DNA from: Chloroflexota bacterium
GTDB lineage: Bacteria; Chloroflexota; Limnocylindria; Limnocylindrales; CSP1-4
Direction: 5' to 3'
DNA: 39,550 nucleotides
NCBI GenBank assembly: GCA_017881915.1
Contig: JADGQK010000019.1
Span: 1 to 39,550, forward strand
Below are positions 418 to 32,517 of this stretch, in pieces. The position numbers and the translations under genes were made by a program. Every line of letters starts with the position of its first letter. Position 1 is the first letter of the stretch. The notes below the pieces were generated by a model. The model saw nothing but the letters and a program-made list of their open reading frames with translations. It was not told where the DNA came from and searched no databases.

Positions 418-602
418 GTTCGACTCCGCGGCGTGCGCGCGAGGGCGTTTGCCGTCCTCGGTTCGGGCGAGTGTACGAGGCGTCCGTCGATTGCGCAACC
501 CATCTCCATGGACCGAAGGTACCGCCGCCCCGCGCCGATCTCCGGGCGGCGGGTGCAGCGACTCCCCGGCCCCCGGCGCGGAGCCTGTGCTAGCCTCCTG
601 CC

Positions 603-28998: not shown

Positions 28999-29189
28999 GA
29001 CGGCGGGTCGGGGCCCGGCAGCCTGGGACGCCTCCGGGCCACCACGATCCGGACGATCCCGTCCGTCGAGACCCGGTGCGGACCGGCAACTCCCCCACGT
29101 GTCGGGTCCGACTGGTACTCCCGGCTCATGGCCCGGGCAGGACTCCGGGTGCACGATCGGGGCAGAGATGACTCTCATCTCTCGGTGAA

Positions 29190-29276
29190 CCGACCGTCCA
29201 GGGCAAACCCGTCGTGAGGCGGGGACGCAAAGCCAGGGACCTCTGCCTTCGGCGGAGGCAGCCCGGCTGCCGGCGG
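29190..29276 (+). promoter_or_regulatory. Cyclic di-GMP-I (GEMM-I) riboswitch
   Basis: Matches remembered GEMM-I consensus: ccAGGGCAAACC-cguc(GUGA)ggcg-GGGACGCAAAGCC-aGGGACCU...AGGCAGCCcGGCUGCCGg; GNRA loop in the first stem, UUCG-type loop in the second. Confidence 0.92.
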
Positions 29277-29305
29277 AGATCCGCAGCCGCACTCGAGGTG
29301 CAGCG

Positions 29306-29398
29306 ATGAGGGCGAACCTGGCGCGCTTCATCATGGCTGGGGCGAACGCGCCCTCGGCTCTCACTTCGGGCGAGTCGGACAGGTTGGGTCTCACGTGA
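29306..29398 (+). CDS. Candidate small ORF, 30 aa (MRANLARFIMAGANAPSALTSGESDRLGLT)
   Basis: ATG 30 nt after the riboswitch with GAGGTG about 5 nt upstream; stop overlaps the next GTG by 4 nt (GTGA). Could instead be an untranslated expression platform. Confidence 0.4.
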   Translation: MRANLARFIMAGANAPSALTSGESDRLGLT

Positions 29399-29496
29399 AG
29401 AAACTGATCAGGTCGCAGGCCTTCCGGGTCCTGCTCGCCCTCGGAGCGCTCGGCAGCTCGGCAGTCGTGCTCGAAGCTGGTCGGCGCTGGTTCTAG
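29395..29496 (+). CDS. Candidate small membrane peptide, 33 aa (MKKLIRSQAFRVLLALGALGSSAVVLEAGRRWF)
   Basis: GTG start, basic N-terminus, hydrophobic core, basic-aromatic C-terminus; the last plausible gene on the + strand before convergent PRODH. Confidence 0.6.
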   Translation: MKKLIRSQAFRVLLALGALGSSAVVLEAGRRWF

Positions 29497-29500
29497 CAAA

Positions 29501-29550
29501 CAGGGTCGATTGACCCTGGCCGCAACGCGGGCCGCCGGATCGACCGGCGG
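29501..29550 (+). terminator. Tandem hairpins after the 33-aa ORF
   Basis: CAGGGTC-GATT-GACCCTG (29501-29518) and CCGCCGG-ATCGA-CCGGCGG (29532-29550); no T tract. Confidence 0.4.
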
Positions 29551-29576: not shown

Positions 29577-30536
29577 CTAGGACGGCCGGCGGCGTTCCTC
29601 GTGGACGACGCTGCGCAGCAGGAACATCACGTTGGCTGGGCGTTCTGCCAGCCTGCGCATGAAGTACGGGTACCACTCGCGACCGTAAGGCACGTAGATC
29701 CGGACCCGATAGCCCGCCCCGACGAGCTGCTGCTGCAGGTCGCGCCGGATGCCATAGAGCATCTGGAACTCGAACCGGTCGCGCCCCAACCCCTCCCGCT
29801 CGACCAGGTCGGTAGCGGCCCGGATCATCCGGGGGTCGTGGGTGGCCAGGGCGGGCGAAGCGCCCTCGCGCAGAAGCCGGCCGAGCAGGGTCAGGTACGA
29901 CTCGTCGACCTCCGGCTTCGTCGGGAAGGCGACCGCGGCGGGTTCCCGGTACGCTCCCTTGCACAGCCGGACCGGAGCCCGCTCGGCGATCAGGGCGGTG
30001 ATGTCGTCGGCACTCCTGCGCAGCGCCGCCTGGATCACGACGCCGCTGGCCGGGTTGATCGCCCGGAGCTCCCGCCAGATCGCCAGCGTCGAGTCCGTCC
30101 TGGCGTGGTCCTCCATGTCGATTCGGACGAACGCACCGGTCGCCGCAGCCGCCTCGAAGACCCGGGCCACGTTCGCGCGACACAGCTCAGGCGACAAGTC
30201 GAGGCCCATCTGGCTGAGCTTGAGGCTGACGTTGCCGTCCAGGCCACGCCCCGCCAGGGCGTCGAGCAACTCGAGATAGCGATCGGCGGCCGCTGTGGCG
30301 GCGGCCTCGGACTGGACCGACTCGCCGAGGACGTCGACGGTGGTCCGGCGGCCGGCCGCACGGAGCCGGTCGAGGGCATCGAGCGCCTCGACCAGCGTCT
30401 CGCCGGCCACGAATCGCTGGACCATCGAGCGGGTCAACGACAGTCGGGTCGCCAGACGCCCGACTCGGGGCTGGCGCGAGAGGGACAGGATCGCCGAACG
30501 CATCGCCCGCTCGGGCAGTTCGCCGATCGCCGTCAT
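29577..30536 (-). CDS. Proline dehydrogenase (PRODH)
   Basis: GNVSLKLSQMGLDLS, VRIDMEDHARTDSTL, PVRLCKGAYREPAAVAFPTKPEVDESY, YGIRRDLQQQLVGAGYRVRIYVPYGREWYPYFMRRLAERPANVMFLLR. Confidence 0.93.
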   Translation of the reverse strand: MTAIGELPERAMRSAILSLSRQPRVGRLATRLSLTRSMVQRFVAGETLVEALDALDRLRAAGRRTTVDVLGESVQSEAAATAAADRYLELLDALAGRGLDGNVSLKLSQMGLDLSPELCRANVARVFEAAAATGAFVRIDMEDHARTDSTLAIWRELRAINPASGVVIQAALRRSADDITALIAERAPVRLCKGAYREPAAVAFPTKPEVDESYLTLLGRLLREGASPALATHDPRMIRAATDLVEREGLGRDRFEFQMLYGIRRDLQQQLVGAGYRVRIYVPYGREWYPYFMRRLAERPANVMFLLRSVVHEERRRPS

Positions 30537-30549
30537 CGGTCCGCCGGCC

Positions 30550-32517
30550 TCAGCCGGCCGCAGCTTCGTTGAGGACGTGCAGCTTGAGGAAGGCCAGGAT
30601 CCGCTCGAACCCATCGCGCCGGTTCGCCCGCTGTTCCCAACCGTGACCCTCCTCCTCGTACCACCGGATCTCGTGGTGCTTGTCCTCGATGACCAGTGCT
30701 TCGAGCAGCTTCTCACTCATCAGCGGCACAACCCGGCGGTCCTTCCGGCCGTGCAGCACGAGCAGGGGCGCCTCGATTCGCTCGGCCCGGTAGAGCGGCG
30801 ATCCACGCCGATAGGCCAGGGCGCCCGCCGGATCGTCGGGGCTGCCCATCTGGCGGTGCAGGTCGATTCGGCCGGGCCGATCGCCGTGGCGGTAGCTCTC
30901 GGCGATCTCCGAATCGCCGTACAGGTCGACGCCGGCTCGCCACAGCGACGGCTCCTCGACGAGGCAGCACAGGGTCAGGTACCCGCCGTAGGACCCGCCG
31001 TAGACCGCGAGCCGCCCGTCACACCACGGTTGCTGCTCGAGCCAGCGGGCGGCATCAATGCAGTCGAACGCGTCAGCGTGGCCCCATTCGCCGCGATTCG
31101 CCTCCCGGAACGCCCGACCGTAGCCCGTTGACCCGCGGAAATCCACATCAAGGACCGCAAAGCCCTCACGGACGAGGAGCTGCTTGAAGGGCTGCCAGGT
31201 GCGCGCGTTCTGCCACGTGGGACCACCGTGGGTATACACGATCGCCGGAACCCGGCCAGCGCCCCGCCGGCCCGTCGCCCCCGCCGGCCGCCACAGGGTC
31301 GCCTCGATGGGCAGGCCGTCCCGGGCGTTGAACCGGATCCGCTCGGGCTCGGTCCAGCGGGCGTGGCGCAGGACCGCCGGCAACGAGTCGGTCAGTGCCC
31401 GCGGCTGGTTCCGTTCGCCCGCAACTCCGGGCACCGGCAGGAGCCACAGGTCCTGCGGACGTCGCTCGCTTTCGCCGATCGCCAGGACCTGGCTGCCATC
31501 AGCCGACCAGGCGATCGCCCGCCAGACGCCCGGCCATGGCTGGATCGCCCGGCCGGCGCCGGCCGCCGGGATCGGCGCCGCGTTCTTCGGCGGCCGACCA
31601 GGCGATCGCCGGACCTGGACCCCACCCTCCGCAAGTGGGGCGACCACCAGGTCGACCAGCCCATCGTGGACGGCAATGTGGGTGAACCAGCGGCCGTCCG
31701 GCGACGGCAACGCGACCGAACCGAACCCGCCGGTCGGCTCACCGTGCTCCTGGACGCCCGACGTGAGGATCGTCCGCCCGCGCAGATCGGGGCCGACGCG
31801 GACCACCTGGAACCAGCCGTCGGCGTCGGAGATCAGGAGCAGGGCTCCGTCGGAGAGCCAGCGCGGACCGCATTCCCAGGCCCCCTGGGCCTCGATTCGA
31901 TGCTCGGCGCCGGTCGCGACCTCGAGGATCGAGACGGTCGAGCGCCAGTCGTCGACTTCGCGCTGGGCAACGAGGGCGAGTCGGGTGCCGTCGGGTGCCC
32001 AGCTGAAGTCGTCGACGTCCAGGCCGGTCGGCGTCAGCGGGGTTGCTTCGGCTGGTTTCGGATGGCGGGCCGGCCGGCCCCGACGCGGGATCGGCGCATC
32101 GATCAGCCAGACCTGGGACCAGCCCCGTCGGCGCGACACGAAGGCGAGCCGGCTGCCGTCCGGACTCCAGCGCGGGGAGCTGTTGCCGGCCGGATGCTCG
32201 GTCACCCGGACCTGGCGCGAGCCGTCTGTTCCGATGACCCAGACCGAGCCGTCCCTGATGAAGGCCAGCCGCCGGCCATCGGGCGACCAGTGCGGATCGC
32301 TGACCGACTTCTCGGACGCGGTCAGCTGGATGGCCGGGCCGCCGCGCAGCGGCAGGATGAACAGCTGGCGCGCATCGGCCGCCTCCTGGGTGTAGGCGAC
32401 GAAACGCTGGCGGGGATCGAGTCGGTACTCACGGGCTGCGTCGAAACCCAGGATTCGTTCGATGGCCAAGGGTTCGGACGAGGTGACGGCGGCCGCGTCA
32501 GCGATCAGGGAGGGCAT
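30550..32517 (-). CDS. S9 family peptidase (prolyl oligopeptidase / acylaminoacyl-peptidase type)
   Basis: WD40-like PD40 repeats (DPHWSPDGRRLAFIRDG; SPRWSPDGSRLAFVSRR) and hydrolase domain YGGSYGGYLTLCC, DSEIAESY, LVLHGRKDRRVVP, EEEGHGW. Confidence 0.94.
   Translation of the reverse strand: MPSLIADAAAVTSSEPLAIERILGFDAAREYRLDPRQRFVAYTQEAADARQLFILPLRGGPAIQLTASEKSVSDPHWSPDGRRLAFIRDGSVWVIGTDGSRQVRVTEHPAGNSSPRWSPDGSRLAFVSRRRGWSQVWLIDAPIPRRGRPARHPKPAEATPLTPTGLDVDDFSWAPDGTRLALVAQREVDDWRSTVSILEVATGAEHRIEAQGAWECGPRWLSDGALLLISDADGWFQVVRVGPDLRGRTILTSGVQEHGEPTGGFGSVALPSPDGRWFTHIAVHDGLVDLVVAPLAEGGVQVRRSPGRPPKNAAPIPAAGAGRAIQPWPGVWRAIAWSADGSQVLAIGESERRPQDLWLLPVPGVAGERNQPRALTDSLPAVLRHARWTEPERIRFNARDGLPIEATLWRPAGATGRRGAGRVPAIVYTHGGPTWQNARTWQPFKQLLVREGFAVLDVDFRGSTGYGRAFREANRGEWGHADAFDCIDAARWLEQQPWCDGRLAVYGGSYGGYLTLCCLVEEPSLWRAGVDLYGDSEIAESYRHGDRPGRIDLHRQMGSPDDPAGALAYRRGSPLYRAERIEAPLLVLHGRKDRRVVPLMSEKLLEALVIEDKHHEIRWYEEEGHGWEQRANRRDGFERILAFLKLHVLNEAAAG

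Follow-up and report, generated by a model that had tools for sequence, protein, structure and literature searches.

A recurrent c-di-GMP-I riboswitch cassette with probable membrane microproteins in a family of Ca. Limnocylindrales

Organization of the locus

The window, by which we mean the whole 39,550-nt stretch analysed here (contig JADGQK010000019.1 of a Chloroflexota genome), carries on its plus strand an aptamer of the c-di-GMP-I (GEMM-I) type followed by two tiny ORFs. A DinB-family gene lies immediately upstream, as in most of the window's genus. The features of the locus are as follows:

29073-29096 (+): conserved upstream element CCGGTGCGGACCGGCAACTCCCCC, a possible regulator site (found by eye)
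29110-29131 (+): promoter element GACTGGTACTCCCGGCTCATGG, consensus nactGGTACtncCGgccCATgG (EM motif, PWM)
29152-29157 (+): presumed -10-like hexamer CACGAT (YASSRT in relatives), at a fixed spacing of 20 nt from the promoter element
29164-29182 (+): leader hairpin AGAGATGA-CTC-TCATCTCT, immediately 5' of the aptamer (covariation)
29193-29275 (+): c-di-GMP-I type aptamer, GCCAGGG subtype (RF03167, RF01051)
29295-29300 (+): Shine-Dalgarno-like GAGGTG ahead of ORF1, within a hairpin at 29289-29301
29306-29398 (+): ORF1, apparently a decayed copy of peptide A, 30 aa, ATG start (judged against intact A copies such as that of L034)
29395-29496 (+): ORF2, intact peptide B, 33 aa, GTG start (profile match, pN/pS)
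29501-29518 (+): 3' hairpin CAGGGTC-GATT-GACCCTG, a possible RNA end, with no U tract and no terminator call
29577-30716 (-): convergent PRODH gene (PF01619)

The original prediction, made from the letters alone, had described two tiny overlapping ORFs squeezed between an aptamer and a convergent PRODH gene, and this arrangement stands, with the stop codon of ORF1 overlapping the start codon of ORF2.

The aptamer and its leader

That the plus strand carries a GEMM-I-type aptamer is borne out by covariance models: in cmscan, positions 29193-29275 (+) match RF03167 (c-di-GMP-I-GGC) with E = 4.3e-13 and 64.3 bits, the gathering score being 59, and RF01051, the model named for the purpose in the original prediction, at 62.3 bits against 35, which makes the match significant under both. 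It is the sole match of either model in the 2.92 Mb genome. RF03167 matches are present in 59 of the 107 genomes of the window's family and fall into two subtypes distinguished by the third helix, which reads GCCAGGG (as in the window) or GCCACGG or similar.

In sequence and structure the aptamer resembles known c-di-GMP-I riboswitches (RF01051/RF03167). From a manual alignment by eye, we take the Vc2 ligand contacts G20, A47 and C92 to correspond to G29203, A29230 and C29270 of the window, and the columns of these three nucleotides are invariant across 25 relatives. Where the RF03167 consensus has GCGAA the window reads GCAAA, so the pocket has a canonical look and the ligand to be expected is c-di-GMP. 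The two models score alike, and the RF03167 label makes a variant ligand possible. The leader hairpin at 29164-29182 shows compensatory changes in all of its consensus pairs (5/5, 25 sequences), and both this covarying 5' hairpin and a recurrent promoter element are additions relative to the usual c-di-GMP-I riboswitches.

The GCAC-tcgag-GTGC hairpin around the Shine-Dalgarno sequence had been put forward as a plausible switching site. It does exist at 29289-29301 in the window and in some relatives, yet it is not conserved: over 26 sites, folds of the Shine-Dalgarno region were no more stable than shuffles (mean fold z -0.04), and for this reason we rejected it as a conserved switch. An intrinsic terminator was likewise rejected as the expression platform, none being found. 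Since the aptamer and the first start codon are only about 30-40 nt apart and the terminator search found none, translational control by the riboswitch, in either direction, would be the simplest reading; the switching step itself is a proposal, because a search for a conserved expression platform over the 26 sites found none.

A family of paralogous tiny peptides

The ORFs behind these aptamers form one family with two kinds of member, peptide A (~29 aa, consensus MKANLARFTWALALLASMALTLGAGMRW, ending in GAGxRW) and peptide B (~33 aa, consensus MKxxxRxQAFRxLLALxALASSALVLEAGxRW, ending in EAGxRW), which occur in tandem or singly. They are paralogous, the profile of each retrieving the other, and the invariant positions of both concentrate at the C-terminal (A/E)AGxRW. 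The hydrophobic body of the peptides (best 15-residue Kyte-Doolittle mean of about 2.3 in B of the window) is consistent with one membrane helix, and A and B are probably single-pass membrane microproteins. Against curated profiles, peptide A found no Pfam match at E 0.01 and no NCBIfam match at 0.1, and peptide B matched no Pfam or NCBIfam model. A literature search for such peptides returned none, although the work defining the GGC variant may have noted such ORFs; the family appears to be undescribed.

Both peptides are under purifying selection in frame. As calculated from nearest disjoint pairs, pN/pS for B is 0.33 in frame but 1.69 and 3.21 in the two remaining frames; for A it is 0.50 in frame, compared with 0.94 and 1.93. 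Substitutions are biased towards third positions. These values bear on the alternative that the ORFs are leaders whose translation matters (it might serve RNA stability or riboswitch read-out, for instance) and not their product. Several lineages do keep only the first codons of A, much like an initiation leader, but selection acts in a frame-specific manner across the body of both peptides, the C-terminus is conserved and B is also found as a stand-alone gene with no aptamer, so that we consider a pure leader function very unlikely.

In the window itself, the two ORFs named as the riboswitch targets in the original prediction fared differently. ORF2 matches a B profile built without the window's genus at E = 7e-16 (the runner-up among 778 window frames has E = 0.74) and is conserved immediately 3' of the aptamer in every relative of the genus, and also in further genera; this supports the prediction of a small membrane peptide, easily overlooked in gene calling, as the riboswitch target. 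ORF1 scores 11 bits to peptide A, compared with 51-64 bits for intact copies, and keeps about nine N-terminal codons, having lost both its AGxRW terminus and the hydrophobic core; it reads as a decayed copy of A and is a poor candidate for a functional peptide in this genome. The same A stub is found in L033 and in genus g20 (L020, L022, L026, L027 and L030), where it apparently arose independently. Within the window's genus, both A and B are intact in L034; A has been lost in L035 and L036, which have B immediately 3' of the aptamer. Where both peptides are intact, the B start overlaps the A stop or follows it within about 7 nt, which makes translational coupling of B to A plausible.

Recurrence of the aptamer-peptide pairing

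GTDB genomes were searched with a GCCAGGG-subtype pattern free of coding sequence. This gave 28 stretches, 26 of them titled Chloroflexi, Chloroflexota or Limnocylindrales. The other two are titled Acidimicrobiia and Deltaproteobacteria and may be misbinned Chloroflexota; contigs of these two MAGs (L073 and L081) carry the same cassette type. When the pattern scan and the family search were combined, 28 distinct GCCAGGG sites were obtained, most of them from the coding-free pattern. An A and/or B profile match lies within 420 nt of 27/28 of these sites (the single site with no intact peptide being L073), as against 0/38 for the other aptamers of the family (Fisher p 1e-17, a nominal value as the sites are related by descent). 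In the family search alone a peptide stands behind 27/31 GCCAGGG-type aptamers, a count that shares loci with the former and is not independent of it. GCCAGGG-type aptamers L047, L048, L059 and L060 precede larger, mostly secreted proteins, at least one of them an S8 protease.

The pairing of riboswitch and peptides thus recurs in many related genera, and the aptamer-peptide unit stays together as the neighbouring genes vary between copies. The label of an orphan riboswitch, given in the original prediction, was therefore too narrow, as the cassette in the window is of a recurrent type that has a promoter element of its own. One could still suppose a chance GEMM, or a relic of an aptamer in decay, with spurious ORFs behind it, given that ORF1 is decayed and that the genome has one aptamer only; this is contradicted by the association (27/28 versus 0/38), the in-frame selection and the covariation, and is in our view extremely improbable. 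It is very probable that c-di-GMP signalling has a genuine output in the A/B peptides.

Several side observations concern tandem copies and the other subtype. Three riboswitch-peptide cassettes stand in tandem on one contig, about 550-600 bp apart (L071, G002:C392). At L007, L011, L017, L028 and L070, GCCACGG-type aptamers lie immediately 5' of tiny hydrophobic ORFs of 31-36 aa; these are of a third kind (e.g. MATARPRLDALVRVLAVAALAFAGIASVRPI) that has no AGxRW end. Among the GCCACGG-type loci within L037-L069, many GEMM aptamers precede secreted-looking proteins, several of which start with M(x)FWDGxxW, and the promoter element is also present at some of these loci.

Peptide B itself is nearly limited to one Ca. 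Limnocylindrales family, where it is found in 33/107 genomes and 14/27 genera; outside the family, a search of 399 genomes of the phylum gave only three marginal matches (E 9e-5 to 9e-4). A viral origin was considered and rejected, the GCCAGGG-subtype pattern having no match in viral contigs; a looser pattern hit one viral contig, in a different aptamer context and with no A/B peptide seen by eye. Roughly half of the cassettes, riboswitch-bearing or not, have immediately upstream a gene recognized from a sequence motif as DUF5317-like (of three examples tested, two reach Pfam DUF5317), and its membrane protein product is possibly a partner of the peptides or merely a stable neighbour.

A shared promoter element and a candidate regulon

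Nearly all cassettes have nactGGTACtncCGgccCATgG at a fixed distance upstream, followed after ~20 nt by a YASSRT-like hexamer, and the CCGGTGCGGACCGGCAACTCCCCC element recurs, by eye, ahead of many of them, with and without riboswitch. The promoter element is common to the riboswitch cassettes and the stand-alone B genes: with riboswitch loci as its only training set, a PWM reaches at least 11.9 in 18/18 of the latter, the 99th percentile of 260-nt controls being 9.5-10.2. Since some B genes have no riboswitch, RNA-borne control by c-di-GMP is inessential to the peptide.

A genus-level pattern search placed the element ahead of one conserved gene in 4/4 genomes, and the product of this gene is a protein of 1518 aa with HTH_17, four GAF, PAS, two GGDEF and one EAL domain. 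Across genera, 23/30 homologs of this HTH-GAF-GGDEF-EAL protein score above 10 upstream and 18/30 pass the stricter cut-off of 12.0, to be read against 99th percentiles in 450-nt controls of 10.0 (reversed DNA) and 12.0 (real DNA) and with related loci not being independent. Protein and peptide B are found together in 15/33 genomes, a modest excess over expectation (one-sided p 0.026). The protein looks like a member of the regulon and is only possibly a regulator of the cassettes; we rejected it as their required or sole regulator, given this co-occurrence and the several peptide-bearing genera that have no close ortholog.

Besides this gene, a relaxed promoter pattern gave mostly noise in the window's genus. 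One match in the window's genome, just 5' of a likely sigma-factor gene (L169, G000:C79), may be due to chance. The same promoter element also occurs at 506-527 (-) of the window, upstream of an ORF of 67 aa close to the beginning of the contig (214-417, minus strand), relatives of which (RRHVAIVxTxDGRRV) are found downstream of several peptide cassettes (L016, L056 and L081).

We tentatively raise the idea, which we hold to be rather unlikely, of a dedicated Ca. Limnocylindrales c-di-GMP regulon, in which an enzyme that combines domains for making and degrading c-di-GMP with a DNA-binding HTH domain (HTH_17-GAF-GGDEF-PAS-GGDEF-EAL) would share, and perhaps bind, the element, the riboswitch would serve as a second c-di-GMP check at the level of the mRNA, and the paralogous ~30-aa membrane peptides would be the end products. 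If true, this would be a two-layer c-di-GMP circuit ending in microproteins.

Proposed mechanism

With good confidence, we interpret the locus as a self-contained output cassette for c-di-GMP, a riboswitch-controlled operon of A/B membrane peptides in which the cassette's own promoter, a leader with a covarying hairpin, the GEMM-I aptamer and the tiny A-B operon would follow one another in this order. Binding of c-di-GMP to the aptamer would most likely alter the access of ribosomes to the first start codon, and B, whose start overlaps or closely follows the A stop, would be made by translational coupling to A. The product would be a single helix in the cell membrane, with its conserved (A/E)AGxRW end probably touching a membrane protein. 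As the riboswitch would gate peptide synthesis and this end probably makes such a contact, the level of c-di-GMP may set the amount of a small subunit or effector. Points against this reading are the four GCCAGGG-type aptamers that stand ahead of larger proteins, the B genes that have no riboswitch, and the failure to find a conserved expression platform.

A related case comes from C. difficile, where in type I toxin-antitoxin pairs such as CD0977.1-RCd11 a riboswitch that works through termination stands 5' of the antisense RNA antitoxin (PMC7699646). As in the window, a c-di-GMP-I riboswitch is tied there to the locus of a tiny membrane protein; unlike there, what follows the riboswitch here is the peptide mRNA itself, on the same strand, with no terminator seen. 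Apart from these C. difficile systems, no precedent for a riboswitch-peptide cassette was found in the literature.

This likeness raises the alternative that A and B act as small hydrophobic toxins or depolarise the membrane, in the manner of type I toxins, and that the riboswitch restrains or releases them. Their size and hydrophobicity, their occurrence in several copies, also in tandem (L071 has three cassettes), the repeated decay of A and the position of the C. difficile c-di-GMP-I riboswitches ahead of antitoxin RNAs of type I pairs (PMC7699646) would all suit such a role. However, the strong conservation of the polar C-terminal AGxRW in both paralogs and the promoter held in common with a c-di-GMP enzyme better fit a regulated effector, and toxicity seems to us distinctly unlikely.

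CydX and KdpF are comparable small regulatory membrane proteins. Like A and B, they have about 30-40 aa and one predicted hydrophobic helix and are easily missed by annotation; A and B differ from them in being, on our reading, riboswitch-controlled and in having no Pfam or NCBIfam match.

Significance

The kind of riboswitch is known; the microprotein targets and the promoter common with a c-di-GMP enzyme appear to be undescribed. Instead of the motility, adhesion, secreted or turnover genes that usually follow c-di-GMP-I riboswitches, ~30-aa membrane peptides stand downstream here. Riboswitches with no annotated gene downstream usually stay unexplained, and in this case the missing genes are conserved, unannotated microproteins, which indicates that riboswitches can flag real small ORFs. 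Through the common promoter element the peptides are tied to an enzyme of c-di-GMP turnover, which opens the regulon to testing. In a large lineage that is uncultured, c-di-GMP signalling gains a class of output that is, as far as it appears, undescribed.
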